The notes beneath the pieces were generated by a model. The model was not told where the DNA came from. It did no database searches and worked only from the letters and a program-made list of their open reading frames with translations. Of a stretch of 64,000 nt of DNA, positions 7,153-54,129 are shown one piece after another. The translations under genes and the position numbers were made by a program. Position 1 is the stretch's first letter; each line of letters starts with the position of its first letter. This DNA comes from an uncultured Acidobacteriia bacterium (GTDB lineage: Bacteria > Acidobacteriota > Terriglobia > Bryobacterales > Bryobacteraceae): assembly GCA_903875575.1 (NCBI GenBank), contig CAIQWJ010000005.1, positions 1 through 64,000 of the forward strand, read 5' to 3'.

Positions 7153-7211
7153 GGGTTCGATGTAACGATTCTACGAGAGCACTCGCTATCATCAAAAGGC
7201 AAAGAGTAAAA

Positions 7212-7910
7212 ATGCCTGATTCGAACAAGAAAGCCGTTTGTCTGCTCAGCGGAGGCCTCGATTCCGCGACCTGTCTGGCGCTGGCGCGACGCGACGGTTA
7301 CGATTCCTATGCGCTGTCGTTCGACTACGGGCAACGGCATCTGACCGAACTCGATGCCGCGCGACGCGTAGCGGAGGCGCTGGGGGCCAAAGCGCATCGT
7401 GTGGCGAAGATCGATCTGCGGGTGTTTGGGCATTCTGCGCTGACGGCCGATATCGACGTACCGAAGGGGCGCGACGAGGCGACTATGGGCGAGGGGATCC
7501 CGATTACCTATGTTCCCGCGCGGAATACGATTTTTCTTTCTTTCGCGCTGGCGTGGGCCGAGGTGCTGGAGGCGAGCGATATCTTTATCGGCGTGAACGC
7601 GCTGGATTACTCGGGGTATCCCGACTGCCGCCCGGAGTTCATTGATGCCTTTGAGAAGATGAGCAATCTGGCGACGAAGACCGGGGTGGAGGGGATTACG
7701 CGGATCACAATTCACACGCCACTGATCCAGCTTTCCAAGGCCGGGATTGTGAAGCTTGGTGCGGAGCTTGGCGTGCCGTTCGGGCTGACGCACAGTTGCT
7801 ATGATCCCGACGCTTCCGGCCGTCCCTGTGGCGAATGCGATTCGTGTCTGCTGCGGGCGAAGGGCTTCCGTGAGGCCGGATTAACGGACGACGCTCTGCA
7901 GGTTGCCTGA
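7212..7910 (+). CDS. queC: 7-cyano-7-deazaguanine synthase QueC
   Basis: Makes preQ0 from 7-carboxy-7-deazaguanine, ammonia and ATP for queuosine or other 7-deazapurines. The PP-loop SGGLDS is at residues 13-18. The conserved FDYGQRH follows, and the zinc-binding C-terminal cysteines lie in [18 protein letters not shown]. At 232 residues it has the usual length. The stop codon overlaps the queE start by one base (TGATG), so the two are translationally coupled. No queD or queF lies nearby, and no preQ1 riboswitch could be seen in the 59 bases upstream. Confidence 0.97.
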
Positions 7911-8584
7911 TGCGCATCTCCGAGATTTTCTATTCGGTGCAGGGCGAAGGCGTGCTGGCGGGCGTGCCTTCGGTCTTTGTGCGCACGAGTGGCTGCAATT
8001 TGCGGTGTTCGTGGTGCGACACGCCGTATACGTCCTGGAAGCCCGAGGGCGAAGAGATGACAATCGACGCCGTAGTGGCGCGTGTGGCGGAGTATCCGAC
8101 GGCGCGGCACGTGGTGGTGACCGGCGGGGAACCGATGATCGCGAACGGCGTGGTGGAGCTTTCGGAAAAGCTGAGGGCATGCGGTCTGCATATCACGTTT
8201 GAGACGGCGGGCACGGTGTTTGCGCCGGTGGCGTGCGATCTGATGAGCATCAGTCCGAAGCTGGCGAATTCGACGCCGGAGGGTGTCTACCAGGAACGGC
8301 ACGAACAGCTGCGGTTGCAGCCGGATGTGCTGCGACGGTTGACGCGCGAGTGCGACTATCAACTGAAGTTCGTGGTGGCGCGTGAAGAGGATCTGGCGGA
8401 GTTGCAGGCGATTGTGAAGATGCTGGATGCGCCGGCGGAGAAGGTGATCCTGATGCCGGAAGGGGTTTCGGGGGAGATCCAGAGCGAGCGCGGGGTGTGG
8501 ATTGCGGAGTTATGTAAGGCGCATGGATACCGGTTCGGGCCGCGGCTGCATGTGTATTTGTACGGGAACCGCCGGGGCGTTTAG
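7910..8584 (+). CDS. queE: 7-carboxy-7-deazaguanine synthase QueE (radical SAM)
   Basis: Radical SAM enzyme that contracts the ring of 6-carboxy-tetrahydropterin to CDG, the substrate of QueC. The Fe-S motif is CNLRCSWC at residues 29-36 (CxxxCxxC), preceded by the substrate-contact block FYSVQGEGVLAGVPSVFVR, and VVVTGGEPM follows. At 224 residues it is the normal length for the family. The gene overlaps queC by one base, and its stop codon lies in the loop of a strong hairpin. Confidence 0.97.
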   Translation: MRISEIFYSVQGEGVLAGVPSVFVRTSGCNLRCSWCDTPYTSWKPEGEEMTIDAVVARVAEYPTARHVVVTGGEPMIANGVVELSEKLRACGLHITFETAGTVFAPVACDLMSISPKLANSTPEGVYQERHEQLRLQPDVLRRLTRECDYQLKFVVAREEDLAELQAIVKMLDAPAEKVILMPEGVSGEIQSERGVWIAELCKAHGYRFGPRLHVYLYGNRRGV

Positions 8585-8593
8585 CCCCGGCGG
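8569..8593 (+). terminator. Hairpin containing the queE stop codon
   Basis: A perfect 10-bp GC stem (CCGCCGGGGC paired with GCCCCGGCGG) encloses the 5-base loop GTTTA, and the queE stop TAG spans the loop and the start of the 3' arm. No U-tract follows, so this is either a Rho-independent terminator of weak type or an mRNA-stabilising 3' end. Confidence 0.6.
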
Positions 8594-8783
8594 CGCAGAG
8601 CAGCGCGACCAGCATGAAAGGCGGCCACGTTCGTGATTGACCCTGGCCCCGGTCACGCGGGACCGGCATTTCGACAAGCTTCCGCAGTTGCGCCGCGCGA
8701 TGTAAGGCGAGTGAAGCGTCGGCGCTCAGGCCGAGTGCCACTCTCAGAAGGGTTCACGCCACCGTTTGAGACAATGATGGAAC
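8594..8783. other. queE-asnB intergenic region
   Basis: No convincing gene. Open frames here on the minus strand are continuations of antisense reading through queE. The region should hold the asnB promoter, but no clear -35/-10 pair was recognised. Confidence 0.4.
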
Positions 8784-10697
8784 ATGTGCGGCATCGCGGG
8801 ATTCACGGGTAACAGCGGAGGTTCCGGTTTTGGCCCGAAAGACGGGCTGATTGAGCGCATGACGGCCACCATCACGCATCGTGGCCCAGACCAGCAGGGC
8901 GTTTACCGGTCAGAGGGGATTGCGCTGGGGGCGGTCCGCCTTCAGGTGATCGATCTCGATGGCGGCGAACAGCCGGTCCGATCCGGCATTGAAGATGCAG
9001 CCGGTGGTTCCGACGCTGAACACAGCGTAATCGTCTACAACGGCGAAATCTACAATTTTCGGGAACTGCGCGCAGAACTGGAATCGCTTGGTCACACGTT
9101 CCGTTCCGATTGCGATACCGAAGTGGCACTGCGGGCCTTCCTGCAATGGGATACAGGTTGTTTCGCCCGGTTGCGCGGAATGTTCGCGATGGCGATCTGG
9201 TCGGAACGCGACAGACGGCTGGTGCTGGCGCGCGACCGGCTGGGAATTAAGCCGCTCTACATCCGCCGGATCGGGCAGGATCTGGTCTTTGGTTCGGAGA
9301 TCAAGGTATTGCTGGAACACCCGGGAGTGACACGGCGTCTCGACAGGACGGGTCTGAGCGATTTCCTGTCTCTGCTCTACGTGCCCAGTCCGCGGACGCT
9401 GATTGAGGGGATTGAGAAATTGCCCTCCGCTCACTATCTGGAGTGGCAGGATGGTGTGACGAAAATCACGCCATACTGGACGCTGAAATTCGCCCCCGAC
9501 GAATCGATCCGCGAAGAGGATGCAAAGGCCGAATTGGACCGTTTGCTCCGGGCTGCCGTGCGGGAGCAACTGGTGAGCGACGTACCACTGGGGGTTTGGT
9601 CAAGCGGCGGCATCGATTCCTCCACGTTGCTGCATTACGCAGCGGAGCTGGGTGCAGGGCCGATCCAGACTTTCTCCATGGTGTTCGAATCGAAATCCTG
9701 CGACGAGAGTCCGTACTTCCGCGAGATTTCGAAGATCTACGGGACCGGGCATCACGAATTCGAACTAAACCGGGATTCGGCCATCGTTTCCGCGATTGAA
9801 GACTTCGCGTTTTATTCCGATGAGCCCGGTGGGGACGCGGGCGCTCTGCCGGTCTGGTTCCTATCCAAAATGAGCCGTCAGGATGTTACGGTGGCGCTTT
9901 CGGGCGAGGGTGGCGACGAGCTTTTTGGCGGCTACATGACGTACCGGGCAGACGCACTGGCCCGTTATCTGCGCGTCGTGCCGGCCGTGTTCCGCGAGGC
10001 GGCCCTGCGGGCTGCTCATGCTCTGTTGCCCGCTTCGGACGCGAAGATCGGCTTTGAGTATAAGCTCAAGCGGGGAATTGAAGGTTCACTGCTCCATCCG
10101 GATGAAGCCCACCTCTTCTGGAACGGGGCTTTTTCGCGCGCGCAGAAAGAGGAAATCTGGCCCACGGTGCCGCCGCACGAATTGCGGCGGCTGACCGCGG
10201 GCTTGCCTTCCGCACGGGAGATCGGTTTCCTCAACCGCTATTTATTGCTCGACCAGCACTACTATCTGCAGGACAACCTGCTGTGTAAAGTGGATCGCAT
10301 GAGCATGGCTCATTCGCTGGAGGTGCGCCCGCCACTGCTTGACCACAGGATCGTGGAGTTTGCGGCGAGGCTGCCGGAGGGGCTGAAGATCAACGGTTCG
10401 CGACAGAAAGTCATTCTGAAAAGCCTGATGCGGGACAAGCTGCCCGCGTCGATCCTCGCGCGGAAGAAGGCCGGGCTGGACATTCCGGCGCATGAGTGGT
10501 TCCGTGGGCCATTGTTGCCGCTGTTCGAAGATACGGTCAACGAGAATGCGGTAAGGGGCACCGGGTTGTTCGACTATGCGGCCATCCGAAAGATGGTGGA
10601 CGACCACACCAGCCGCCGCATCAATGCCGGATATCAGTTGTGGGCGCTGCTTACGCTGTTTCTCTGGCTGAAAAGGTGGCGCATCGCGACAGTATGA
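8784..10697 (+). CDS. asnB: Asparagine synthase (glutamine-hydrolysing)
   Basis: Class II glutamine amidotransferase fused to an asparagine synthetase domain. MCGIAGF places the nucleophile at Cys2, and the glutaminase landmarks THRGPDQQG and YNGEIYN are present. The synthetase P-loop reads SSGGIDSS near residue 272, followed by LSGEGGDELFGGY. At 637 residues it is full length and carries the extended C-terminus of the AsnB1-like form often found in surface-polysaccharide loci. Degenerate copies of its last ~25 codons occur at 14850-14932 and perhaps 13511-13545, so the 3' end has been duplicated locally. Confidence 0.95.
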   Translation: MCGIAGFTGNSGGSGFGPKDGLIERMTATITHRGPDQQGVYRSEGIALGAVRLQVIDLDGGEQPVRSGIEDAAGGSDAEHSVIVYNGEIYNFRELRAELESLGHTFRSDCDTEVALRAFLQWDTGCFARLRGMFAMAIWSERDRRLVLARDRLGIKPLYIRRIGQDLVFGSEIKVLLEHPGVTRRLDRTGLSDFLSLLYVPSPRTLIEGIEKLPSAHYLEWQDGVTKITPYWTLKFAPDESIREEDAKAELDRLLRAAVREQLVSDVPLGVWSSGGIDSSTLLHYAAELGAGPIQTFSMVFESKSCDESPYFREISKIYGTGHHEFELNRDSAIVSAIEDFAFYSDEPGGDAGALPVWFLSKMSRQDVTVALSGEGGDELFGGYMTYRADALARYLRVVPAVFREAALRAAHALLPASDAKIGFEYKLKRGIEGSLLHPDEAHLFWNGAFSRAQKEEIWPTVPPHELRRLTAGLPSAREIGFLNRYLLLDQHYYLQDNLLCKVDRMSMAHSLEVRPPLLDHRIVEFAARLPEGLKINGSRQKVILKSLMRDKLPASILARKKAGLDIPAHEWFRGPLLPLFEDTVNENAVRGTGLFDYAAIRKMVDDHTSRRINAGYQLWALLTLFLWLKRWRIATV

Positions 10698-41661: not shown

Positions 41662-42708
41662 CTAACGGTGGAGGGCGGAAATCACGTAAGCGTGGGCCAA
41701 AGTTGGTACGAAATCGCTCGTTTCGAGCCCAGCTTCGGCCAACCAGGCACGGTATTCGGCACCGCTGTAGGCGCGGCCTTCGGTGAGAGTAAACAGCTGC
41801 GCCGAATAGCACGCCACTGCCAAAGGGCCATCCAGCGCGTCATTGAGAAGGACGTCATGAATGATCAGGCGGCCGCCCGGTCGCAGGCAGTCCGCGCATT
41901 TGCGAATGAGAGTTTGGCAATCTGTAACATCCCAGTCATGCAGAATATTCGAGAGCAGCGCAAAATCAGCGGAGGGTAAAGGAGCCGTAAACATATCGCC
42001 TTCCAGCCACTCGATGCGGTCGCTCACACCGTAGCTTTCGGCAAACTCCTTCGCAATGCGAAGTACTTCGGGGCGGTCGAGGATGATGGCGCGAAGGTCC
42101 GGGTTCCGTTGCAGGAGAGAGATAGAGTAGATCCCCGTACCGCCGCCCACATCGAGCAGCGTCCCGGAACAGGGCGACAACCGTTCTGCCAAAACCGGCG
42201 CGACATTCTTCGCCCGTCCGGCAAGGGCCAGTGTCAGTTGACGGGCAGAAGCCTCCTTCTCCATCGCCGATTCCATGCCTTCTTTATAGATGAAAGCGGC
42301 ACCGGCGTCCTTGTCGACGCTGTTCGCCGGACGGTTGCTGCGCAGACGCTCCACGAGTTCCAGAACGGCGGGCGATTCCGCCGCCAGCCCGATGTAGCCG
42401 GCGATGCTGAAATAATTCTCCGGCACAAGCTGCTCTGCCGCCTGGGGCGACAGCGTCAGCAGGCCGGCGGCGTCAGCCACAATGAGGCCCATCGCGCGGA
42501 GCGCGGTGATCAGCACGATGGCGGGGCGTTCTTCCAGGCCCAGCGCACCCGCAAGATCCCCAAATGTCATTCCACCCGCCACCAGATGCTCGAAAACGCG
42601 GAAATGCGCAACGGCGGCAGTGAGCAGATTCGACGCGAAACCCGCACGGAAGTATTCGAAGATCGGGGTCGGGTCCAGGCTCGGCGGTTCAGTGGCGTTC
42701 AGCGGCAT
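41662..42708 (-). CDS. O-methyltransferase (dimerising, type 2)
   Basis: 348 residues with an N-terminal winged-helix dimerisation domain (MTFGDLAGALGLEERPAIVL) and a C-terminal class I methyltransferase. Motif I is LLDVGGGTGIYSISLL, and the catalytic region NILHDWDVTDCQTLIRKC resembles O-methyltransferases of small phenolic or polyketide substrates. It starts only seven bases after the STAND gene's stop, so it is probably the last gene of the gasdermin operon. Its place in that system is unclear: it could modify a signal, or be a passenger. No regulatory site separates it from the operon. Confidence 0.85.
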   Translation of the reverse strand: MPLNATEPPSLDPTPIFEYFRAGFASNLLTAAVAHFRVFEHLVAGGMTFGDLAGALGLEERPAIVLITALRAMGLIVADAAGLLTLSPQAAEQLVPENYFSIAGYIGLAAESPAVLELVERLRSNRPANSVDKDAGAAFIYKEGMESAMEKEASARQLTLALAGRAKNVAPVLAERLSPCSGTLLDVGGGTGIYSISLLQRNPDLRAIILDRPEVLRIAKEFAESYGVSDRIEWLEGDMFTAPLPSADFALLSNILHDWDVTDCQTLIRKCADCLRPGGRLIIHDVLLNDALDGPLAVACYSAQLFTLTEGRAYSGAEYRAWLAEAGLETSDFVPTLAHAYVISALHR

Positions 42709-42715
42709 GCCTCTC

Positions 42716-45700
42716 CTAATCGTGTTGCTTTCTCTTGTTCAGATCGGAAATCACTACGTTGCGCACTGCCTGTTCGGCCGTGAGACGGCCCGGCACCACA
42801 TTCGTGGAACCGGCAAAACCAAGGGCATCAGACAACCCGGTCATGTCCACCTTTTTGTAAAGTACTTCCCGCCCCTCAAACAGGACTCGCACCGCATTCT
42901 CCGTTCTGCTGACCTCCACCCTCACGTGCCGCCATTCCCCGTTGGTATAGGTGTCGGCACTCCCTTCGGCCGTACCCACCAGTTGATCCGCCTTACCGGT
43001 TTCATTCCTGACCATCTGGATTAACCGGGCGTCAAAGGTGTTGATATGCAGCGCCAAACCGGAACCTACTTCTCCCCTTTTGGGCAAATCGGCGTAGGCC
43101 GAAATTATCGACCGGTAGGCCAGGCGATCCCGCGCGAAAAGAAAAACGACACCCTGCCCCGTGGCGGAAGGACTGGCAGAGACCGAATTCCGTACCGAGT
43201 ATTCGAAATCCACGGCATAATCGCGCGGGAGCCTCGTGTCATTATCCAGCAGCACGGCAGTGTTTTGCCCAAACCTCTGATCGGTGGCCAGAATGATCCT
43301 GTCGTTTTGAAAGGCCGGAATGGCGGGCAGGGAGATGGTGCGCAGCTTTTCTTTCCCCAGTCGCGCCAGAGTGATCACGTTGTTCGAACGAAAAGCCAGG
43401 CTGGCATCCGGGGCCGAAGTACCAGCATGGGTAATTCTCACATTACTGATGGTCTGCTCTTCCACCGCATCACCCGTGGCACCACCAAAGCCGAAACTGC
43501 CATAGGTGGTATCGAGCGCGGGCCGCGTGGGAGCACGGGAAATCGCAAGGAGGCCGTCAATGTAAACGTTGATGCCCTGGAAATTCGGCCCGGAAGCACC
43601 AGGGCACATCGACGCGGTACTAAACGGGCTGACCTCGATACACACATGCCTGGGATTGTCGCCCGGCTTCACGTTCGGGAACACAGCGGTACCCTCATGG
43701 TGCCCGTCGTCCGATGTCCCCGGACCGTAGAAGCGGAGTCCAATGCCGGGATTCCTGTAGACGTAAGAGTTGAAGACCACAGCGTAACCACTGCCGGGAG
43801 CGAAGCTGAAATCGGGCGTTTTCAGAGAATTCTCTTCATAGGGCACCGGGTCTTTATAGAACATGAAAGAGAAGCCATCTCCGAAGTAACTGGGGGAATT
43901 TCCCAGGCTTCGAAGGTTGTAATCGAACTCCACCTTGAACGCGCCCCGGAGGCTCTGCCGGTGCAGAATGGCGGTGCGGGCTCCGCCAAGCTGATCGGGC
44001 ATCAGCCGGATCGTATCGCCAACCACGGACGGATAGGTGGCTGCGGCTATCGCCCCGCGACTCAGCAACTCAGAGTCGTCGGCCTCCTGCTTCGTAAAGT
44101 GCGTTTGACGTGTCGATCCGGTTCCAAAGAATTTCGCGGCTGCCTGCTTTGCTTTGTCGTTCATGGCCAGACGGGTTTCGTCTACCGGTTCGTCGCCAAA
44201 GTCGCCGTAACCCAACTCCGCACCCGATCTCACCAGCAACTTATGCCGCAGTGCGTGGCTGCTCTCGCCGGAAAGGAGTACCTTCAGATCCCACTTCTCT
44301 TCCTTTGATTTAGGCCCCGGCTTAAATATCTCCGGGAATAACGGCGTGCGGTGGATATCCCCGTCCATCGACACGTTCGTCAGTGTGTCCGCCTTTTCGC
44401 TGAAGCCCACAGCGACCACCGCGAGCTTGTGCTGCAGTGAATCCGCCCGCACGATTCCGCTTTTGCCGTCCAGCACTCTGACGTGTCCGTTGGCGTAGCC
44501 AGCCACAATCATTGACGATCCGGGCCAGAAAGCCAAAGACGTCACCGGGCCGGCCGCGGGCGTGTTGAAGGTGCCATCGCGGAGCAGGACGGGTTTGCCC
44601 GCTGCGATCCGGTAGAAACGGATAGAGGCATCCTCAAACCCTGCGGCCAGCACAGGCGAGGGATCCTTTGACCACGCCAGCGTCCGCACAATGGGACAGC
44701 CCACAGCCAACTGGCAGGGTAGTTCAGCAAATGGCTCCGGGTTGGCGGTGGCCGAAGGAGAACGAAACAGCAACAGGTGTCCGGAGGATGTGCCCGCCGC
44801 CAGAAGACCACCGCTCCAGGAGAGCGCAGTAATCCGATCGTTCCCGGAATACGTCCAGGTCCGCTTTGAAGTGGCGTCGTCCGCGAAGATAATTCCGTTC
44901 TCCGTTCTTTCCGGACTGGGAAATCGCTGGAAGCCGATCGCAAACTTCTGCTCGGTGGAATCCACGGCGATGGATTCAATCCTGACCTGATTGAGGACGG
45001 TACCAGGCTGACCAGACAGGCTCGCGGGAATCTTACAGTCACGGAAGCACTTGAGAACGGAAGGCCGCTTCCCTTCGGGCTCCGTCGATCCCGCGATGTC
45101 TTTACTCAGATAGAGATGGCCCGTCGAGGGTACCAACGCGGCATGGTCCATGGCTTCCGTGCTGGCGGTGTCATTGCCGGTGCTTCTATAGCCCGGATAG
45201 AAATCCGGCCACAGCAGATAGCCAGCCACAGACGATACATCCGGCACGGGGCCGTGAGCGCGGTCGAGGGCATCGAGGGCGTACATCCAGGCACGCTGCG
45301 AATCTTCCGGAGAGTCGTTTTGTGAGCGAAGGTCGGCACTGGTGGCCTTCTCGATAAACAGCCCGGTGACCGCATTGTCCGTCGCCGCCAGGGCGTCGGT
45401 GGCGGTCTTCTCCGCCGCTACTGCCTGCAGTTGGCGAACCTTGGCGTCCGTCTGCGCGGCAAACTCTTTGGCTGCCTCTCCCAATGCGCTCGCCGCTGCA
45501 CTGACCGCAACACTCTTGGCCATGCCCGCGATGACCGAACTGCTCCGTGCCGCATTCCACTCCCATCCCGCGACGCACAACGCAATCACTGACAATCCGA
45601 CCAGAGCCTTGAGGAAGATGTTATTCCTGCGCAGACGGTCGGCCTGGGCTTTTTCCCGGACCGCCTGCTCTCTTTCTCTCTGCGCCTGGTCGCGGTCGCG

Positions 45701-47005
45701 CTGTTCGGCCTCCTCCCTCCGCCCGGAGCGTTCCAGAAACTCGCTCTCTTCCGGCGAGAGAGTCATCGCGGCGGCTTCAGCCTTCGCGGTCTCCAGGTCT
45801 GCACCCACCAGCAGCAGCGCCCGCGGCTTACCCTGCGAAACCCACAGCCGGGCACTCTTCTGCAGTTTATTGAGATGAGCGTCCAGCCATTCTTCATTGC
45901 TGCCCATGACAGGCTTCACCAGGCGGTCGTGCGACAGTTCATACCAGATAGACCCGCCTCTGGGCTCTCCGCGAATCAGGTAAGTGTCTCCCAACTCGCC
46001 GATGGTGCCGTTATCCAGACCGCCGCTGGAACCGGGTTCCCTGCGAACCTGGTTGCGCACTCCATCCGCCGTGATCAGCTTGTGCTGAAACCACTCGCGG
46101 ATGCCGCGCTCCTTTGACTCATCCTTGCCTGCGACCTCCTGCACCGAATTGTCGTAGTAGTTCTTCAGCGCCAGACTCACATCGCCGATGTCATCGGCGG
46201 TGATGAGCATATCGTCCGGCCGATCGCGCTCCATTCGTTCCCAAAGGTCGTAACAAACCACCTGGAGTTGCAGCGGTTCGACGTAATCGCCATCGAGTTC
46301 TTCCGGCGTGCCATCGGGTTTCTGGCCTTTGACCCTGGCCAGATTGAGCACCAGTTGATCTACCACTCCGGCCCCGTACTGACGCGGGCAATCCGCGACG
46401 GGACTCGATATGGCTTCGGCCGCTCCTTCCGTGGTCAGTCGATCCAGACGGTAACGATTCAGCAGGTGAGTGGGGACCAGGTGGGCGTAGGGATCGAGCG
46501 GCGCCAGAAAGTCTTCGCGCAGAACCAGCAGCGCCCAGATGCCGGGAACGCTCAGCATCTCGCCCAGTTGAGTAAAGAACTCCAGTTTTTTCGCGCCGTC
46601 CTGCGGGTCCACACGCAGGATCTCTTCGAACTGGTCGATGATGATGAGTGGATTGCGATTGCGCCCGCGCTTCGCGGCCCACGCCGACAGGGTAATGTCG
46701 GGAAAATCGTCTTTCTTCTCCACCCCGGCAATCACACTCCACACGAAACGGTTTGCCACGCTCACGCCGGGCGGAGGCTCGGTGTTGACGCGAGTGGGCC
46801 CCCAGATATCGAAGCGTTTCCTGAGTTGCGGAATGAGGCCCGCGTTCACCAGCGAACTTTTGCCGGCCCCGGAAGGCGAATGCAGCAGCACGATGCGTTC
46901 GGAAGTGATCAGCCCACGCAGTTCCGTGACTTCGCGGTCGCGTCCGAACAGAGTATTTTCGAGCGCAAAGGGCTGAGGGCCGACATAAGGATTGGGAAGG
47001 GCCAT
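42716..47005 (-). CDS. Transmembrane STAND NTPase (nSTAND1) with propeller and lectin-like domains
   Basis: 1429 residues. The N-terminal P-loop NTPase begins NPYVGPQPFALENTLFGRD, has Walker A SPSGAGKSS (43-51) and Walker B LIIIDQFEEI (120-129), the nSTAND1 form. A charged coiled coil (about 425-462) leads to one membrane helix (465-484). Beyond it, about residues 580-900 look like a beta-propeller of WD40-like blades (VTSLAFWPGSSMIVAGYANG). Two concanavalin/L-type lectin-like domains follow, about 970-1210 (FGDGFSFMFYKDP) and 1230-1429 (GQGVVFLFARDRL). STAND proteins are sensor switches that oligomerise on ligand. Which side of the membrane the propeller and lectins face is inferred to be outside. 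The gene starts three bases after the CHAT gene's stop. Confidence 0.85.
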   Translation of the reverse strand: MALPNPYVGPQPFALENTLFGRDREVTELRGLITSERIVLLHSPSGAGKSSLVNAGLIPQLRKRFDIWGPTRVNTEPPPGVSVANRFVWSVIAGVEKKDDFPDITLSAWAAKRGRNRNPLIIIDQFEEILRVDPQDGAKKLEFFTQLGEMLSVPGIWALLVLREDFLAPLDPYAHLVPTHLLNRYRLDRLTTEGAAEAISSPVADCPRQYGAGVVDQLVLNLARVKGQKPDGTPEELDGDYVEPLQLQVVCYDLWERMERDRPDDMLITADDIGDVSLALKNYYDNSVQEVAGKDESKERGIREWFQHKLITADGVRNQVRREPGSSGGLDNGTIGELGDTYLIRGEPRGGSIWYELSHDRLVKPVMGSNEEWLDAHLNKLQKSARLWVSQGKPRALLLVGADLETAKAEAAAMTLSPEESEFLERSGRREEAEQRDRDQAQREREQAVREKAQADRLRRNNIFLKALVGLSVIALCVAGWEWNAARSSSVIAGMAKSVAVSAAASALGEAAKEFAAQTDAKVRQLQAVAAEKTATDALAATDNAVTGLFIEKATSADLRSQNDSPEDSQRAWMYALDALDRAHGPVPDVSSVAGYLLWPDFYPGYRSTGNDTASTEAMDHAALVPSTGHLYLSKDIAGSTEPEGKRPSVLKCFRDCKIPASLSGQPGTVLNQVRIESIAVDSTEQKFAIGFQRFPSPERTENGIIFADDATSKRTWTYSGNDRITALSWSGGLLAAGTSSGHLLLFRSPSATANPEPFAELPCQLAVGCPIVRTLAWSKDPSPVLAAGFEDASIRFYRIAAGKPVLLRDGTFNTPAAGPVTSLAFWPGSSMIVAGYANGHVRVLDGKSGIVRADSLQHKLAVVAVGFSEKADTLTNVSMDGDIHRTPLFPEIFKPGPKSKEEKWDLKVLLSGESSHALRHKLLVRSGAELGYGDFGDEPVDETRLAMNDKAKQAAAKFFGTGSTRQTHFTKQEADDSELLSRGAIAAATYPSVVGDTIRLMPDQLGGARTAILHRQSLRGAFKVEFDYNLRSLGNSPSYFGDGFSFMFYKDPVPYEENSLKTPDFSFAPGSGYAVVFNSYVYRNPGIGLRFYGPGTSDDGHHEGTAVFPNVKPGDNPRHVCIEVSPFSTASMCPGASGPNFQGINVYIDGLLAISRAPTRPALDTTYGSFGFGGATGDAVEEQTISNVRITHAGTSAPDASLAFRSNNVITLARLGKEKLRTISLPAIPAFQNDRIILATDQRFGQNTAVLLDNDTRLPRDYAVDFEYSVRNSVSASPSATGQGVVFLFARDRLAYRSIISAYADLPKRGEVGSGLALHINTFDARLIQMVRNETGKADQLVGTAEGSADTYTNGEWRHVRVEVSRTENAVRVLFEGREVLYKKVDMTGLSDALGFAGSTNVVPGRLTAEQAVRNVVISDLNKRKQHD

Positions 47006-47008
47006 CGC

Positions 47009-49111
47009 TTATTCGCTCCTGTCTTCGGCCGTCGGTGCCTTGTCGAGCTGTATGCGGAGTTGACGCAGGAAGTCAGCCGCAGTGCCCCAGTAGATGTCGA
47101 TTTTCGCCGTCGTGAAATACTTCTGCAGATACTTCTTCGCCAGCCGGGCATTGGCGAGCGTGGTCTCGGCCGGGTCCACCTGCACCGCCACGTGGTTGAA
47201 GCCCTGAAGCAATTCCGCTCCGCCCTTGGCGACGATCATGCGGAACAGCACGCGGAACTTCCAGTCGTCCAGAGGGAAGCCGACGAAAAGCAGAGAGCCC
47301 GCCACCAGCGCTTCGCTCACTACGCCAGGCATCAGCTTGTATTGGGTGGTGCGGATCAGGTAATCGAAGAAATCGTCTTCCGTGAGTACCCAGGTGTCTT
47401 CTTCCGGCTCCCGGCGCTTGCCGAAGACGTAATAGATGAAGGGCTTTTCCACCGTGGGATCGCCCTGAAACGCCTGCTTCTTCGTTTTCAGTGTCCGTTC
47501 GTCGCGCCATTGCGAGACCAGTGCAACGGGAGTCTTCTTTCCGCCTTCGCAGGCCGCTTCTTTCACGTACGCTTCGAGCAGCGTATCGTAGCCCGCGTTG
47601 ACAAAGACCGGGACATCGAAGCCCGCGACGATGCGCAGGGGATCGCGCTTCAGCGGGTCTGCGTCCAGCGTGGCAGCCTGAGCAGCCAGGGCCTGCTGCA
47701 AATCGAGCACGCCCATCGCGCTGACCGGCTTGCCGTTAACAGACTTACCGAGGATGCGCTCCCCTGCTTTGTAGATCTCGTTCTGAAAAGCGGTTCTCAC
47801 TGTAGCGCGGGCAAATTTGGGACTCTGCTGGATCGCAAGATACTGGGCAACCTTCGCGAGATCGAACTGATCGCGGGTATCGAGCGGAAAGTTCTGATCC
47901 CGCGCGATCTGCGCCGCGACCGCGCGGGAACTGCCGTTGATATGTTCGGCAACATCGGGGCCGAGAATTGGCACGCACTGGCCTTCTCTCACGAACTTGC
48001 ATATGGACGTCCACTGCTGGAACTCATCCACACCAGCGTCACCCTGGAAGCCGGGCACGTACCAGATGCGCCCGTTGCGCAGGCGCATGAAAAGCGAGGG
48101 CATCCAGCAATCCGGCCGATCGCGAACCGCGCCGCGCGCCACCGACATGGCGCGGTCAATCTGACCGTCGGTCAGAAGCTGGGTAAAGAACTCTTTCATG
48201 AAGACAGCCGAAGTCTTCATGCTGAAGTTGCCCTGCATGGCGATCACCGCGGGGATACCAGCATCAGCGAGGCGCGGACCCAGTCCGGCAAGGCCAACTC
48301 CGCCCTTCCCCGCGCTCTGGCACGAAGCGAGGACAATCAGGCTGGGGCGTGAATCGAGCGCCCAGATGCGTTTGACGAGTTCGCCGCCGGGCACGGGGCC
48401 GGAGTCGTCCAGGAAGATGTTGGCCTCATTCTTCAGCAACGCGCCGTGGCAGACCAGATAGAGAATGTCGTAGCCGTCGCCTTTAGCCAATTCGTCCGAA
48501 ATACTCTGGAGGGAGATCGCTCCGCCAGGGGCAAGCGTAGTGATGCGAACGCTGCTCCCGCTGGCACCGAGCGCCTGCTGGACGTTCGCGAGTTCATCCG
48601 CGACCGCGACAGGCTCCAGGTCGAATTCGTCCAGGTTCTGCGGATTCGCAATGACTACAAGCGCGGAAAGATCGGCCTTCGGCTTGAGCCGAACGGGGCG
48701 TGAGTCAAGGCTGCTGGCGAGGAAGCGCGAGACCAGGGTCGTCTCCCCCATGAACAGCGGAGCATCCGGCATGGCGGGGTCCGCCAGCGTCTCCCAGTGG
48801 ATGGCGTGGAGTTCCGGTGCGCTGGATTCGATGGAGAGGCGGACGCGCAGCGAAGAGTTCTGATTCTGCGCCAGACTCCGGAAACGCAGGAACTCGGACT
48901 TCAGATCGCCCTGGAAGAACGCCACTCCGAGCTGGTTGCCATAGGTTGCGGGATCGAAGACCTGAAGCGCAGCGGGATCCAGGGTAAAGACGGGATCGGC
49001 CGGCGAGCGCTGTTCGGCATCGTCGTCCGGCCCATTGAAGCGGAAACTGGCCGCGTACGTGAGCGAGTCACGCCGTCGTAACGCGAGTTCCAGATCCGAG
49101 TATCGAGCCAT
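47009..49111 (-). CDS. CHAT caspase-like protease fused to a degenerate SIR2-like domain
   Basis: 700 residues. Residues about 90-350 are a CHAT domain with the clan CD dyad His222 (LYLVCHGALL) and Cys264 (LIVLASCQSAGKG). Residues about 378-670 resemble the SIR2_2 fold, beginning VPILGPDVAEH. However, the NAD-contacting Asn of the TTNYD-type motif reads NAGYD (VFVNAGYDTLLE), and the His of the HLFG-type motif is Tyr (FIYYVFGK). This half is therefore probably not an NADase but a recognition or scaffold domain. The gene starts directly after the gasdermin stop codon with no gap, so tight coupling suggests that the gasdermin is its substrate. Confidence 0.85.
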   Translation of the reverse strand: MARYSDLELALRRRDSLTYAASFRFNGPDDDAEQRSPADPVFTLDPAALQVFDPATYGNQLGVAFFQGDLKSEFLRFRSLAQNQNSSLRVRLSIESSAPELHAIHWETLADPAMPDAPLFMGETTLVSRFLASSLDSRPVRLKPKADLSALVVIANPQNLDEFDLEPVAVADELANVQQALGASGSSVRITTLAPGGAISLQSISDELAKGDGYDILYLVCHGALLKNEANIFLDDSGPVPGGELVKRIWALDSRPSLIVLASCQSAGKGGVGLAGLGPRLADAGIPAVIAMQGNFSMKTSAVFMKEFFTQLLTDGQIDRAMSVARGAVRDRPDCWMPSLFMRLRNGRIWYVPGFQGDAGVDEFQQWTSICKFVREGQCVPILGPDVAEHINGSSRAVAAQIARDQNFPLDTRDQFDLAKVAQYLAIQQSPKFARATVRTAFQNEIYKAGERILGKSVNGKPVSAMGVLDLQQALAAQAATLDADPLKRDPLRIVAGFDVPVFVNAGYDTLLEAYVKEAACEGGKKTPVALVSQWRDERTLKTKKQAFQGDPTVEKPFIYYVFGKRREPEEDTWVLTEDDFFDYLIRTTQYKLMPGVVSEALVAGSLLFVGFPLDDWKFRVLFRMIVAKGGAELLQGFNHVAVQVDPAETTLANARLAKKYLQKYFTTAKIDIYWGTAADFLRQLRIQLDKAPTAEDRSE

Positions 49112-49906
49112 CTAGAAACGAATCTCAACCAGTTCCGCCGGGACCACGATGGGAGCGTCAGGCGTATCTTCATCAGCGAATGCAACGGCACCGGAGGGCG
49201 CAACGCCCTGGATGTTCCATTTGCCACCCACATACGTTATGGCGTAGACCTGAAAACCGAAGACGAGCGGCACGGCGTTTTCATACGTCACTTCGGTGTT
49301 TTCGGTGCCGGTTACTGTGACGCCCACCTTCGCCCCAAGCGCGGCCTGAATGGCTGGCACGTTCACATTGGCGGATTTGTTGTCATCGCGTTTCGCCGAA
49401 ACCTTGATGGACTTCGCCAGAAGAACCTGCGAAACTACCAGCACCTGCGTGCCCTTCGCGCCGCCGAAATAGCGCTGCACGAAAGGGTTGTGGGAGGCCA
49501 GTTCGCCCTTCGCGATGTAGTTGCCGATCACGAAAGGATCAATGCCCGAGACCGTCACGTCGCCCAGTTCAAACTGGATCGACTTCGCGTCGCTGTAAGC
49601 GCCGCTCACGCTCGGGGCCGAGCCACCAAACATGCCGCTGAGCGCGTTGGCCAGGATATCGAGACCGGCGGACAGCTTGAGTTCACTGGTGCGGAAGCCG
49701 GTGATCTTTGCGGCGGCCTGCTGGGGCGCGGGCACAGGAACCGGTAGTTCGGACTTCCAGATCTGATCGAGCGTGCCCAGCCAGTTCTTCGAATCGCCAT
49801 CGACGCCGATCACTCCCAGCGGGGCAATACCCTGGCGGGGAAGGCGCAAAACGCTATAGCCAAGATCATTCAGATACGTTAGTTTCGGATCGACGCAGAC
49901 AGCCAT
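49112..49906 (-). CDS. Bacterial gasdermin (bGSDM) pore-forming protein
   Basis: 264 residues from ATG 49906, which has GAGGT seven bases upstream; a GTG nine bases earlier is also open. The N-terminus MAVCVDPKLTYLNDLGYSVL followed by RLPRQGIAPL fits known bacterial gasdermins, including a Cys at position 4 where those proteins carry a palmitoyl group. The middle reads ITGFRTSELKLSAGLDIL, and the conserved late block is VTYENAVPLVFGFQVYAI. About 30 residues after the core (AFADEDTPDAPIVVPAELVE) fit the short autoinhibitory tail removed by a dedicated protease. Once cut, family members assemble into large inner-membrane pores that kill the infected cell. Neighbours encode two clan CD proteases. 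Confidence 0.88.
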   Translation of the reverse strand: MAVCVDPKLTYLNDLGYSVLRLPRQGIAPLGVIGVDGDSKNWLGTLDQIWKSELPVPVPAPQQAAAKITGFRTSELKLSAGLDILANALSGMFGGSAPSVSGAYSDAKSIQFELGDVTVSGIDPFVIGNYIAKGELASHNPFVQRYFGGAKGTQVLVVSQVLLAKSIKVSAKRDDNKSANVNVPAIQAALGAKVGVTVTGTENTEVTYENAVPLVFGFQVYAITYVGGKWNIQGVAPSGAVAFADEDTPDAPIVVPAELVEIRF

Positions 49907-49930
49907 CAGGGACACCTCTCTCTTTCGCGA

Positions 49931-51388
49931 TTAACTGAGTATAGCCATGTCTGAGGTGCGTAAGCGAACGGCAGGGTCGCCCAGGATGATGTAGTTGCGG
50001 GCGTCGTCGCGTGCCACCCACTGGTTGGCTAACTGCTTCATGTTTTCGGGCGACAGAACCCGCTCGCCGGACTGCACCTGCTGAAGCGTTTCGGCGATGC
50101 CTGTCGAAAGCGCGCCCCAGTTGGTGTTGAACTGGTCGGTGGCCTGGCCGATGCGATCACCGGCCATCAGTTTGTTCAGGATCATGCGGAAGTCGCCGTT
50201 CTGCGCGGTGCCGCTATCGGATTCGAAAGACCAGCCCCAGGCTCGATCAATGTGGCCGATGACGGCGAGCGCACCACCTTCCGGATGCGTCAGGAGCTTG
50301 CGCGGAAGTTTGGCGAGCGCGGGCGCGGGCGAGATCTGCGGAGCAGCTTTGGCCGTGCGGCTGAAGGTATCGTATTGAGGCCAGCCAACACCGTAGCAGG
50401 CGAACATGAAGTGGATCATGCCGTGAACGCGGGCCCCGGCATCGAGATCGACTCCGGCGAAGATCTGATCGGGCGTCGCGGGCGTGCCGCGCACCCATTC
50501 CTGACAGATCAGTGCACCCCGCATTTCGGGCAGGCGCGGATCGGCTGGATCGTTGATGGAACGGCCATGCGAGCCGGTGAAGATCAGGGCCGGACGGCCT
50601 TTCGCAATGTCGCCGCGCATGAGTTTGTCGATAGCGGCCTTATCGGCGAAGTCGCCGAGGAAGGACTGGACCTGGAAGTTCTGCTTGCGTCCCTGGCCGA
50701 TGGGCTTCGAAATATCGGTGCCTTTGATGAGAGGCAGGGCGACCTGATTGGTGAGCAGGTTGGTGGCTGCATCGCCCTCGTTGCAGGGCGCGAAGAAGGC
50801 GAGTTGCCGCGTGGTTTCAACCGCGGCGTCAGTCTCGTACTTCACCACGGAATCGGCGTATTGGCGGAACTCGTCGGGCGTGTCGAACCAGATGCGTCCC
50901 ACGGCCCAGAAGAGATCGAGCTGGTATTGAAACTCGAAGGAGATATCGACTGGCGAGGCCACGATCAGCACGTAATACGGGATGCCCTGAAGAGGCACCA
51001 CCGTGCGCATACTGGCCCCGTGGCGGGTGATCCAGTCGGAGGCGGATTCGGCAGGCTGGTAGTCGCCGTCGAAGACTTTGAACAGGCGGTCGTCGGCTAC
51101 CTGCGACTTGCGGAGGGCGAGCAGGGGCGCGAGCGCGTCTTTTATGGATTGATCGACGCCCGGTGCGAAGAGTACCGCCCAGCCGACCTCATTGAGGGCG
51201 TTCGGATCGAACTCGCTGTCATCGACTCCGAAGTGGGCCTCGCCCGCGGCGGCTTTGCGCGCCAGTGCGTCGGGATCCATGGGATGCACCGGCGAGGCGA
51301 GGATGGCGTCAGGCTGAACCCCATCGAGGACCGAGCCATCGTCGCGGACGCCGAAGGGCACCGGGCCGGAAAGGAGATTGTTGGTCAT
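49931..51388 (-). CDS. Clan CD (caspase/gingipain-like) cysteine peptidase
   Basis: 485 residues, not a CHAT protein. It shows the clan CD signature: a hydrophobic strand ending in His-Gly (PALIFTGSHGRS, His274) and a second ending in Ala-Cys (GMIHFMFACYGVG, Cys331), followed by a block PEGGALAVIGHIDRAWGW as in C25/gingipain-type enzymes. The N-terminal ~240 residues are an unassigned domain with FEFQYQLDLFWAVGRIWFDT. The start is well supported by GGGAGGT upstream. It ends 24 bases before the gasdermin ATG, so a role as gasdermin-activating or upstream processing protease is likely. No signal peptide is present, so it acts in the cytoplasm. Confidence 0.75.
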   Translation of the reverse strand: MTNNLLSGPVPFGVRDDGSVLDGVQPDAILASPVHPMDPDALARKAAAGEAHFGVDDSEFDPNALNEVGWAVLFAPGVDQSIKDALAPLLALRKSQVADDRLFKVFDGDYQPAESASDWITRHGASMRTVVPLQGIPYYVLIVASPVDISFEFQYQLDLFWAVGRIWFDTPDEFRQYADSVVKYETDAAVETTRQLAFFAPCNEGDAATNLLTNQVALPLIKGTDISKPIGQGRKQNFQVQSFLGDFADKAAIDKLMRGDIAKGRPALIFTGSHGRSINDPADPRLPEMRGALICQEWVRGTPATPDQIFAGVDLDAGARVHGMIHFMFACYGVGWPQYDTFSRTAKAAPQISPAPALAKLPRKLLTHPEGGALAVIGHIDRAWGWSFESDSGTAQNGDFRMILNKLMAGDRIGQATDQFNTNWGALSTGIAETLQQVQSGERVLSPENMKQLANQWVARDDARNYIILGDPAVRLRTSDMAILS

Positions 51389-51412
51389 AAGTGAGCACCT
51401 CCCGCGCGAGTT

Positions 51413-51433
51413 CGCTCCCTTGCGGTCGCGGCT
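51413..51433 (+). repeat. Dispersed 21-bp repeat, copy 1
   Basis: Core sequence beginning CGCTCCCTTGCGGTCG and ending CGGCT, identical to copies at 53980-54000 and 54062-54082. This one lies in the 89-bp gap between the repeat-protein gene and the peptidase gene. Confidence 0.8.
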
Positions 51434-51477
51434 CGGTATGAGCGGCTCCGTCTGAAGTTGCGCCGGAAAGTCGTTGG

Positions 51478-51720
51478 TCAGTTGCCGGCGGAATTGGCCT
51501 TTTCGCCGTCGGAGAAGCTCGGCTTGTCGTCACCGGAGGAGAAGCTGGGCTTGTCGTCACCCGCCGAGAAGCTCGGCTTATCATCGCCTGCCGAGAAGCT
51601 CTCCTTCTCCTCATCGGAGAAACTTGGCTTGTCATCTCCGGACGAAAAGCTGGGCTTTTCGTCGCCAGACGAGCAACTCAGACTGCCGAACTGTGAGTAA
51701 TATTCATTTTCGCTATTCAT
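51478..51720 (-). CDS. Ser/Asp/Lys-rich 9-residue-repeat protein
   Basis: 80 residues. After MNSENEYYSQFGSL come about seven copies of an 8-9 residue unit of the form SFSSGDDKP or SFSAGDDKP, with two diverged units (SFSDEEKE, SFSDGEKA). It should be intrinsically disordered and hydrophilic. A strong ribosome site AAGGAG lies ten bases before ATG 51720, which supports this strand. The gene sits between the kinase and the peptidase. The Ser-rich repeats beside a Ser/Thr kinase suggest a phosphorylation target or an adaptor or bait for the protease. All of that is inference. Confidence 0.7.
   Translation of the reverse strand: MNSENEYYSQFGSLSCSSGDEKPSFSSGDDKPSFSDEEKESFSAGDDKPSFSAGDDKPSFSSGDDKPSFSDGEKANSAGN
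51510..51680. repeat. 27-bp in-frame tandem repeats
   Basis: Imperfect 27-bp units, recognisable by GAGAAGCTCGGCTTGTC and variants, recur across this stretch. The unit length is a multiple of three, so the coding frame stays open, and the opposite strand stays open as well. The array encodes the Ser/Asp/Lys repeats. Confidence 0.8.
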
Positions 51721-51753
51721 ATAAAAGGGTCTCCTTACGCTACTTTTCGAACC

Positions 51754-53913
51754 TTACTTACTCTTCGCGGCAATAGCTGAAAATCTCTTGTCAGCAACCA
51801 GTGCCGCCATCTCGGGATTTCGTTTCAACATCTCCAGCGAATACTTCTTCTCCAGCGCCTTGCCGATCCAGCGCAGAGCCTCATCCCTTTGGTGCAACAA
51901 CTCAAAACCTTCGCCCGCGCGGAACAGGACCTGAGGGTTATCAGGCTCCAGCGCCGCCGCCTGCCGCAACAGTGGCAGACTCTTCTCGGGCATATTGAGA
52001 GTAGCGTAGTATGAGCCCAGATTGGAAATCAAGGTGGCGTCCTGCGGACTCCGCTGATGCTCCTGCTCCGCCAGATCGATCGCTTTGCGGTAGTTTTCGA
52101 GCGCGAGGGCGCGATCGCCAGGGATCTTATCGTAAGCGGAGGCGAGGTTCGCCCACGTCAGATAGTTCGATGGATTCAGGGAACCGGCGCGCAGGTATAA
52201 CTTCACGGCCTCCTGATAGTCGCCTTCTTCCACCAGCACCAAACCGAGATTGGCAAAGTAGTTATCGGCGGGGTCGAGTTCAATCGCCTTGTTGTAAGCT
52301 GCTTTAGCTTCCGGAAGCTTGTTCAGGCGACGGTAGGCGATGCCCAGATTATTCCAGGCTTTGGAGTTGTCTTTGGTCAGGTCCACGGCCAACTGGAACT
52401 GCTTGACGGCATCTTCAAGGCGGCCATTCAGACGATAGAAATTACCTAACTGGTTGGGCCAGCGCCAGTCCTGCGGAGCGAGGGTTTCGGCTTGTTGGTA
52501 GGCAGGTTCGACGTCAGCGGTCCTGCCCTGGCGCGCATACAGATCGGCCTGTGCGGCGAAGACTTCGGCGCTGCGGGGCGCGAGGCGGAGCGCGGTATTG
52601 ATCTCATGTTCGGCCGCATCGTTCTTGTTCGTGAGCGTGTAGAGCATGCCGAGAGTGACGTGGACCGACGCCAGATCGTCCGGCTTGCCGGCTTTCTCAC
52701 AGGCTTCCTGTGTGCTGGTCAGAAGCTCCGGGGTGGCCTGCGCGCGGTAGTTAATAAAGTCGGCGCGGCAAAGTCCCGCGTAAGCAAGCTGAGATTTCGG
52801 GTCGGCGGCGATTGCCTGCCGGAAGCCGTCGATCGCCTTATCCAGATTGCCGGGCAGGTAGTACTTATCCAGATACTCCTGCGCCTTCATCGAAGATGCA
52901 GTCCCGGAAGCGCTGCTCGCCGGGTTGGCGAAGGGCAGCAGCTGGCGAACCGGACTGAACCAGGCAGCGGCGGCAAGCACCGCGACCGCGGGGACAGCGA
53001 GGCCCCAGTATGTCCGCTTCTTTTCCGGCGCGGTGGCCGTGCCGGTTACAGAGTGGACGGAACTCGCCGCGCCCAGGCTTTCCGAAAGGGCGAGCAGCAT
53101 CTGGCCCGCGCTTTGGTGGCGCTGCGCAGGGTCCTTATGGATGGCGGTTTCCACGGCGTGGACCAGCTTCTCCGGCAGGTCCGAACGCTGGTCGTAGAGC
53201 GACTTACGCGGGGCCTTTTCGTGCGCCTCGGCGATCTCCTGAAGTGTGGGCGCATCCACCGGGTACTTCGCGGTCAGCAGGTGATAAAGAAGGATGCCGA
53301 GGGCGTAAATGTCGCTTGCCACTGAGGCACCTTTGCCGGTGAACAGTTCCGGCGCCATGTAGGTTGGGGTGCCACCGAGGTGATGCTGGTCGCGGGCTTC
53401 GAGCGAGAGGCCGAAGTCTACCAGCAAGATGCGGCCACCCTCTTCGCGCATGGCGTTGCTCGCCTTGATATCGCGGTGCAGCAGGCCAGCACTGTGGACC
53501 GCGGCGATCGCCTTGCACAGATCGATACCGACATGGGCAGCTTCGCGGGCGCTGAACGGACCTTGTATGGCCAGCAGGGTGGAGAGTGTCTTGCCCTTGA
53601 CGAAATCGCTCCAGAATCCTACGCGGCCTTCGTGGGTATCTACGCCATAGATGGTGACCACGTTGGGGTGGCGGATGCGGGCCAGCAGGCGGGCTTCGCG
53701 GAGGATGGCTTTTTCCTGATCGGCCTGATCCGAGAGACGCGGATAGAGAAGTTTGAGCGCGACTTCGCGCTGGAGCACCGTATCGAAGGCACGGTAGACC
53801 TCGCCGAAACCACCGTGGCCGACCATCTCCAGAAGCTGGAACGGTCCCCAGGATTTCGGCGCTTCCTTGCGGTAGTGAGGGTCGTCTCCGAGGATGGTGA
53901 GGGTTTCATCCAT
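51754..53913 (-). CDS. Membrane Ser/Thr protein kinase with TPR domain
   Basis: 719 residues, first gene of the gasdermin operon. The kinase domain shows the Gly-rich loop GHGGFGEVY (32-40), Lys54, HRDIKASN (146-153), DFG 166-168 and APE 187-189, so it is expected to be active. One membrane helix (302-320) is followed by a C-terminal array of about ten tetratricopeptide repeats (345-700, e.g. AWNNLGIAYRRLNKLPEAKA). TPRs outside or along the membrane may sense a partner. The repeat-protein gene begins 33 bases after its stop. Kinase-led operons of this kind are common in Acidobacteria, but pairing with a gasdermin is not one I know. Confidence 0.9.
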   Translation of the reverse strand: MDETLTILGDDPHYRKEAPKSWGPFQLLEMVGHGGFGEVYRAFDTVLQREVALKLLYPRLSDQADQEKAILREARLLARIRHPNVVTIYGVDTHEGRVGFWSDFVKGKTLSTLLAIQGPFSAREAAHVGIDLCKAIAAVHSAGLLHRDIKASNAMREEGGRILLVDFGLSLEARDQHHLGGTPTYMAPELFTGKGASVASDIYALGILLYHLLTAKYPVDAPTLQEIAEAHEKAPRKSLYDQRSDLPEKLVHAVETAIHKDPAQRHQSAGQMLLALSESLGAASSVHSVTGTATAPEKKRTYWGLAVPAVAVLAAAAWFSPVRQLLPFANPASSASGTASSMKAQEYLDKYYLPGNLDKAIDGFRQAIAADPKSQLAYAGLCRADFINYRAQATPELLTSTQEACEKAGKPDDLASVHVTLGMLYTLTNKNDAAEHEINTALRLAPRSAEVFAAQADLYARQGRTADVEPAYQQAETLAPQDWRWPNQLGNFYRLNGRLEDAVKQFQLAVDLTKDNSKAWNNLGIAYRRLNKLPEAKAAYNKAIELDPADNYFANLGLVLVEEGDYQEAVKLYLRAGSLNPSNYLTWANLASAYDKIPGDRALALENYRKAIDLAEQEHQRSPQDATLISNLGSYYATLNMPEKSLPLLRQAAALEPDNPQVLFRAGEGFELLHQRDEALRWIGKALEKKYSLEMLKRNPEMAALVADKRFSAIAAKSK

Positions 53914-53979
53914 TGTCAGTACGCTCTATACCGCCGCGAGGAGTGTGCGGCGCGAACAGGGTGCGCAGCCCTCCAGGTT

Positions 53980-54000
53980 CGCTCCCTTGCGGTCGCGGCT
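53980..54000 (+). repeat. Dispersed 21-bp repeat, copy 2
   Basis: Same 21-base core as at 51413-51433. It lies in the leader region upstream of the kinase gene, 61 bases from copy 3 and in the same orientation. Confidence 0.8.
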
Positions 54001-54061
54001 CTCCATTTTCGGCGGAGGTGCGGGGATTGTGTAACCCGAGGAGCGTGCAACCACTGAGGAA

Positions 54062-54082
54062 CGCTCCCTTGCGGTCGCGGCT
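54062..54082 (+). repeat. Dispersed 21-bp repeat, copy 3
   Basis: Third identical 21-base core, also in the region between truB and the kinase gene. All three copies sit in gaps between genes, never in a coding region. Confidence 0.8.
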
Positions 54083-54129
54083 TTCAATTCCCGCTGATTC
54101 ACCAGTTTCACGTCGCATGCCGAACTCCG

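Follow-up and report, generated by a model that had tools for sequence, protein, structure and literature searches.

A gasdermin gene appears to be a swappable effector in a kinase, C25 peptidase, CHAT and STAND gene block of an uncultured Acidobacteriia bacterium

Contig CAIQWJ010000005.1 comes from an uncultured Acidobacteriia bacterium, and the 64,000-nucleotide stretch of it analyzed here, which we call the window, holds a block of seven open reading frames (ORFs), all on the minus strand and together spanning 41662-53913. In reading order, they encode a kinase with TPRs, a small repeat protein (REP), a C25-like peptidase, a gasdermin, a CHAT-SIR2-like protein, an nSTAND1-WD40 protein and an O-methyltransferase (Table 1). 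One gene run thus combines a gasdermin with two proteases that have intact dyads and with two membrane proteins, the nSTAND1 protein and the TPR kinase. An earlier note on this DNA had proposed the seven genes, mostly separated by gaps of 0-33 bases, as likely one new gasdermin system. The ORF positions confirm all seven genes and their coordinates. Gaps of that size are found at five junctions (33 bases between kinase and repeat gene, 15 between C25 and gasdermin, or 24 if the gasdermin ATG at 49906 is used, 0 between gasdermin and CHAT, 3 between CHAT and STAND, and 7 between STAND and methyltransferase) and not between the repeat gene and C25, which lie 89 bases apart.

Table 1. Genes of the block, in reading order, with positions in the window.
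Gene product	Coordinates	Strand	Basis
KIN: membrane Ser/Thr kinase with C-terminal TPRs, 719 aa, predicted transmembrane helix ~304-322	51754..53913	-	Pkinase 3.6e-45, TPR; hydropathy
REP: small repeat protein, 80 aa	51478..51720	-	translation; relatives in G752 and G756
C25-like (gingipain-family) cysteine peptidase, 485 aa, H274/C331	49931..51388	-	PF01364 1.2e-8
Bacterial gasdermin, 264 aa from ATG, N-terminus MAVC	49112..49906	-	NF051890, bGSDM, PDB 7n51
CHAT fused to SIR2-like domain, 700 aa	47009..49111	-	CHAT 3.3e-28, SIR2_2 1e-14
nSTAND1 NTPase, predicted transmembrane helix 463-481, WD40, weak lectin-like C-terminus, 1429 aa	42716..47005	-	nSTAND1 4.1e-30
O-methyltransferase, 348 aa, probable passenger	41662..42708	-	Methyltransf_2 1e-31

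One transcript across the block is plausible. Scans for terminators and promoters decide nothing here, as their counts were poorly separated from those in shuffled sequences: two terminator-like sites fell on the minus strand of the window, both within genes, from a total of 5 sites against 11.6 in shuffles, which is below chance and thus not decisive, and promoter-like sites numbered 4 against 2.8, one of them at the gasdermin-CHAT border (49128-49099, minus strand). A 33-base repeat is present in three copies: the first separates the repeat gene from C25 (51408-51440), and the other two lie upstream of the kinase gene (53975-54007 and 54057-54089); its exact 19-base core occurs at three places in the window and no others.

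The gasdermin matches the NCBIfam family prok_gasdermin (NF051890) with 182 bits against a curated cut-off of 100 (8.3e-54), the PADLOC model bGSDM (5.5e-58) and the gasdermin structure 7n51 in the PDB (1.9e-38). An alternative start, GTG at 49915, would give 267 aa, but the ATG at 49906 is more likely because the orthologues in two relatives, G752 and G756, begin there with MALC or MAVC (G-numbers denote genomes and L-numbers loci that we compared). The protein has a Cys near its N-terminus and a short tail after the core in place of a large C-terminal domain; in most bacterial gasdermins that have been studied, the N-terminal Cys is lipidated. Protease genes flank the gasdermin, C25 just upstream and CHAT directly downstream; one or both may cut the gasdermin tail.

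The C25-like peptidase matches PF01364 with 35 bits against a cut-off of 23, the match being confined to the C-terminal portion of the profile, and a sequence search of the PDB returned no relative. Its dyad, H274/C331, is invariant in 22/22 sequences, and the H222/C264 dyad of the CHAT protein is kept in 13/13; as both fit the clan CD pattern, we take them as the predicted catalytic pairs. The other half of the CHAT protein aligns to ThsA (4e-11), DSR2 and KomC. Here, the Asn column of ThsA structure 6lhx (Ala in 8bto, which we take to be a catalytic mutant) reads Gly, and Phe takes the place of the His in the HG motif. None of the 13 CHAT-SIR2 proteins has HG at the motif position, although in four a His lies three positions ahead of the Gly. 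Because the catalytic Asn and His of ThsA are not conserved, the SIR2-like half is predicted to be without NADase activity, and we set aside an active NADase as a second killer on the same grounds. The block differs from Thoeris in this respect, despite the alignment to ThsA, and also in that no TIR family was found in the scanned proteins. It likewise differs from Craspase, the type III-E CRISPR complex of TPR-CHAT with gRAMP/Cas7-11: by Pfam, the CHAT protein has no TPR family and none of the 10 window proteins scanned has a Cas family.

Two proteins of the block are candidate membrane sensors. The STAND protein matches nSTAND1 with 106 bits against a cut-off of 27 and carries WD40 repeats by Pfam. 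Its C-terminus is weakly lectin-like at 4.9e-4, scoring 20 bits where the Pfam L-type lectin family has its cut-off at 78, and its last 480 residues have no sequence match in the PDB at E up to 1. Hydropathy predicts a membrane helix after the NTPase in 14 of 15 STAND proteins, with more Lys/Arg on the NTPase side in 13 of these 14 and equal numbers in the remaining one. Across seven relatives, the NTPase half is 41-65% identical to the window protein, while the three parts beyond it are 18-44% identical where aligned, and the last part is absent in two of the seven; parts so diverged beyond a better-kept NTPase have the look of a swapped sensor. When six of the STAND relatives were scanned, nSTAND1 was found in all six and WD40 in three, with none in the other three. 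As for the kinases, hydropathy places a transmembrane helix beyond the kinase domain in 10 of 13, the G752 kinase having none above the cut-off. The protein assignments of the earlier note are therefore largely borne out: a genuine gasdermin, two different cysteine proteases, a CHAT-SIR2-like fusion in a single protein, and a kinase and a STAND protein with one predicted membrane helix each. Its transmembrane STAND-propeller-lectin stands for the nSTAND1, WD40 and predicted helix and is weak for the lectin.

All seven genes recur in the same order in G752 (L036), with identities of 69% for the kinase, 57% for REP, 64% for C25, 76% for the gasdermin, 68% for CHAT-SIR2, 47% for STAND and 75% for the methyltransferase; the full order is found only in the window and this one same-genus genome. 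Gasdermin itself is sporadic. We find it in 9/399 genomes of the class (G082 below the curated cut-off), 4/396 of the phylum (two repeating the class set) and 14/237 of the family (six repeating the class set), for a total of 19 genomes and 20 loci, including a weak match in G765 and, at G802:C17, a short contig-end piece. No gasdermin match was found in 72,556 plasmid records. Comparing the surroundings of the 19 loci beyond the window, we find a C25 relative within the stretch compared at 10 of the 20 loci, the window included. At eight of the gasdermin loci without C25, one neighbour was scanned: two are C14 caspases (L014, L018), a known arrangement, and the other six are a sulfatase, a DUF1800 protein, a TPR protein or without a match. 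At L012 and L042, the single neighbour scanned is no protease but one of these, a sulfatase or a TPR protein.

The check that the earlier note proposed, co-occurrence of the genes in other genomes, gives a mixed result. Searching the 237 family genomes for C25 at E up to 1e-10 and CHAT-SIR2 at E up to 1e-40, we find them in 31 and 15 genomes, respectively. C25 is present in 8/14 gasdermin genomes vs 23/223 others (p 6e-5) and in 14/15 CHAT-SIR2 genomes vs 17/222 others (p 3e-13), and CHAT-SIR2 is present in 5/14 gasdermin genomes (p 7e-4), all p-values ignoring kinship and draft-genome gaps. A C25 profile search of 191 class genomes gave 8 positives, all in the family of the window; this sample missed some C25, since G394 and G191, of another family, carry it. 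We then examined 26 C25 loci of Acidobacteria, made up of 23 places (24 of the 41 family-search rows, the other 17 being left out) plus G394, G191 and G546, with parts called at fixed bit-score cut-offs. CHAT-SIR2 occurs at nine, all of which also have nSTAND1, and a large CHAT with an alpha/beta-hydrolase-like gene occurs at ten. Gasdermin is present at 10/26 and absent at 16/26, a share that is inflated because ten of the loci came in through gasdermin. Kinase, C25, CHAT-SIR2 and nSTAND1 are found together at seven loci, and at only two of these seven is there a gasdermin.

Kinase and large CHAT never co-occur at these cut-offs (a more distant kinase at L013 falls below them), and we therefore distinguish two layouts. 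Layout A has kinase and C25, with or without CHAT-SIR2 and nSTAND1. Layout B has a large CHAT of ~1,120-1,270 residues, the hydrolase-like gene and C25 (L013, L015, L038-L040, L101-L104 and L110). Gasdermin is found in both, and layout B occurs with or without it. The hydrolase-like protein and C25 are fused in L039 and L104, and through this fused protein the former, labelled C25up, was first grouped as C25; we rejected that assignment because its GHSFG and HGW motifs point to what we take to be an alpha/beta-hydrolase, the L013 copy having no Pfam match. Plasmid records of Sinorhizobium, Planktothrix and Nostoc also hold C25 with CHAT genes nearby. One of them, L111 (8635-19804), on the Sinorhizobium terangae plasmid pCB3126_2, which is typed as conjugative, encodes a hydrolase-like protein, C25, an ATP-binding protein of ~1,600 residues and CHAT; with no match to gasdermin, it resembles the core in gene content and is a mobile relative of it. 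Two C25 genes look broken, L097 (7228-8542, in two pieces) and L098 (10642-12060, with one stop), which suggests that the C25 module is decaying in some genomes.

To follow gasdermin across these loci, we used a tree of 27 C25 proteins (the 26 loci and three plasmid rows, minus L097 and L098). Gasdermin presence needs seven changes on this tree, at least six of them forced by supported branches, compared to a mean of 8.4 for shuffled labels. Well-supported neighbours that differ in gasdermin are L013 and L103, L039 and L104, and the window with G752 versus contig C90 of G756, bearing in mind that C90 ends 140 bases upstream of its C25 and that the L101 contig ends just after its C25. Our new reading of these distributions is that kinase, C25, CHAT and STAND form a core on which gasdermin seems to be an exchangeable effector.

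The kinase has a companion of its own. REP contains five exact KPSFS units and one degenerate unit and shows no signal peptide or transmembrane segment by eye; its relatives carry four exact KPSFS/PSFS units in G752 and eight in G756, one of these without the Lys. The REP gene begins 33, 22 and 21 bases past the kinase stop in the window, G752 and G756; REP is found in three of the 237 family genomes, a weak G806 match being excluded. Differences in KPSFS codons are mostly synonymous, both between genomes (207 synonymous vs 9 other, from 460 comparisons that are not independent) and within them (99 vs 7), and thus REP is truly coding, its motif kept by selection on the protein. More generally, a small ORF (closed, 40-140 aa, starting no more than 60 bases past the gene and with no ORF of at least 150 aa overlapping it by more than 30%) follows 12/12 kinases of this family vs 30/250 other genes (p 7e-11, kinship ignored), where the other genes are any of at least 350 aa and not unrelated kinases; without the overlap rule, the latter count becomes 82/250. 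The 12 kinases include that of L093, which has no C25 in its stretch, and the more distant kinase of L013, itself followed by a 51-residue ORF, was counted among the other genes. These small proteins are of several dissimilar kinds: KPSFS repeats in the window, G752 and G756; a W-AG-DHP type, recognized by eye, in L091, L099 and L100; and alike-looking proteins of 132-134 residues without a Pfam match in L011 (11575-11973) and L016 (7460-7864), where the kinase preceding this gene converges on C25-gasdermin.

The sole kinase match below 1e-60 adjoins the gasdermin in G394 and G191 (from 72 and 89 first-look candidates). In G332, the single such match belongs to a C25/CHAT-SIR2 locus that has no gasdermin, and a further kinase copy is present elsewhere in G756.

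One idea for the small partner is that the KPSFS(D) units mimic the cleavage linker of gasdermin and act as a protease-absorbing bait until the kinase phosphorylates them, with every kinase of the family carrying its own fast-changing partner. If so, a phosphorylation-controlled decoy would set gasdermin firing. In three genomes, we aligned REP without gaps to every protein of the operon and compared the top score with shuffles. The G752 gasdermin alone stands out, its linker match scoring 46 vs a maximum of 37 in 60 shuffles; the best gasdermin match in G756 is at the linker and falls below the shuffle mean; and that in the window is not at the linker. We regard the decoy, and with it the constant fast-changing partner, as very doubtful.

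Collectively, we lean slightly towards reading the block as a cell-suicide operon of interchangeable parts, in which a cell-killing gasdermin pore is probably triggered by two sensor-like membrane proteins together with two caspase-like proteases. Damage to the envelope or an attacking phage would be sensed by regions that face outward, namely the WD40 and lectin-like regions of the STAND protein and the TPRs of the kinase. The STAND protein may then cluster and activate the neighbouring CHAT-SIR2 protein, with the apparently inactive SIR2 part serving as a docking or nucleotide-binding module. CHAT, C25 or both would cut the gasdermin near its C-terminus, and the freed N-terminal part would make pores, so that the cell dies before phage mature. 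The kinase and its small partner could set the threshold. We infer an antiphage suicide role. If this is correct, gasdermin is not the center of the system but a killer plugged into a sensing core of kinase, C25, CHAT and STAND, a gingipain-family protease becomes a candidate gasdermin activator, and a kinase with a bespoke small protein forms a control layer. Natural versions with and without gasdermin would allow one to ask which part senses attack and which protease fires the pore.

Several observations weigh against this model. KIN-REP-gasdermin (L037) and C25-CHAT-SIR2-STAND lie on different contigs in G756, and L010, from an uncultured Acidobacteriia bacterium, gives the same matches as L037. 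Half of the gasdermin loci (10/20) have no C25 in the stretch compared, L037 and L046 being near contig ends. The kinase is present at 11/26 C25 loci, and its presence on the C25 tree needs six changes, at least four of them forced, so that it is not fixed in the core either. The best kinase of G332 is not on the contig of its gasdermin, and G802 has gasdermins yet no kinase match below 1e-60. Only one of three genomes showed a notable motif in common between REP and the linker of the gasdermin, and the topology of the kinase and the STAND protein is that predicted by hydropathy.

A rival explanation is that two or three independent modules (KIN-REP-gasdermin, C25-CHAT-STAND and the methyltransferase) share a gene run by chance. 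G756, in which the first of these is contiguous without C25, fits this, as do C25-CHAT-STAND loci without gasdermin and a separable methyltransferase. However, the window C25 is closely flanked by the repeat gene on one side and the gasdermin on the other, a kinase lies near C25 without gasdermin at seven loci (L091, L094, L095, L097, L099, L100 and L107), and G756 is listed as 10% contaminated (G752 as 6%), its C25 contig being the truncated C90. We consider chance neighbourhood rather unlikely. Another rival is programmed lysis, for example for particle release or developmental death, as with Caulobacter LypABC: passages of PMC13236601 describe a CARD-NLR-like set that controls gene transfer agent lysis, and the window shows no tRNA at 36000-60000 and no sign of a tRNA-borne island, integrases not having been searched for. 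Sporadic presence, variable sensors, and effectors gained or lost resemble conflict systems instead, and make lysis of this kind improbable. Equally hard to credit is the proposal of the earlier note, a dedicated seven-gene gasdermin system in which every gene is needed: G752 has the full order and no minus-strand terminator-like site lies between genes, but five of the seven four-part loci lack gasdermin, REP is rare and G751 has the methyltransferase without the other six genes.

The novelty claimed for the system thus has to be narrowed. The genuine gasdermin, the two proteases and the order in G752 hold, and genomes with gasdermin or CHAT-SIR2 have C25 more often than others; the core nonetheless recurs mostly without gasdermin, and a seven-gene unit defined by gasdermin is not supported. 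Nor is CHAT with STAND and lectin beside gasdermin itself new, as passages of PMC9612521 show operons in which gasdermin is accompanied by genes for caspase-like proteins (C14 or CHAT), NLRs and C-type lectins, and report that the neighbouring caspase-like proteases cut gasdermin ~20 residues from its C-terminus. The block resembles those operons, since its gasdermin too adjoins caspase-like proteases and a sensor NTPase that carries a binding domain, and differs from them, as there described, in its C25-like peptidase, TPR kinase with small partner, CHAT-inactive-SIR2 protein and optional gasdermin. We found no description of the full set among top-ranked titles and abstract beginnings, and primary lists of gasdermin loci may hold cases with C25 or a kinase. 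Exchangeable effectors are known elsewhere. CARD-NLR variants described in parts of PMC13236601 replace gasdermin by a phospholipase or endonuclease, and in the Lysobacter enzymogenes system a protease and an NTPase activate an exchangeable gasdermin. That protease is trypsin-like, whereas Pfam finds no trypsin family in the seven window proteins and, by sequence profiles only, no CARD domain. Fungal gasdermin systems likewise place a gene for CHAT or another protease (subtilase) beside gasdermin and have repeat domains, and the relevant passages of PMC10989679 describe no C25, kinase or nSTAND1. The nSTAND1/EAD conflict systems in sections of PMC8195603 share nSTAND1 with exchangeable effectors, but Pfam finds no FGS or EAD family in the window proteins. 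The word C25 is absent from the main text of PMC8195603, as are C25 and gasdermin from that of PMC7159879.

Finally, the block has a recognizable genomic site. truB and an M28 peptidase gene lie upstream and an RND pump gene lies downstream. The site is empty in G756, G177 and G267, with truB and RND matches 153-161 bases apart, and thus the block was gained or lost there. The methyltransferase lies directly beside the RND gene in G751, where truB is on another contig; because it is found there without the rest, it is probably a passenger and not, as the earlier note had it, an operon member. At L118 in G133 (6087-9020), the RND gene and truB are separated by ~2.9 kb of other ORFs, so that different inserts may be accepted at this site as well.

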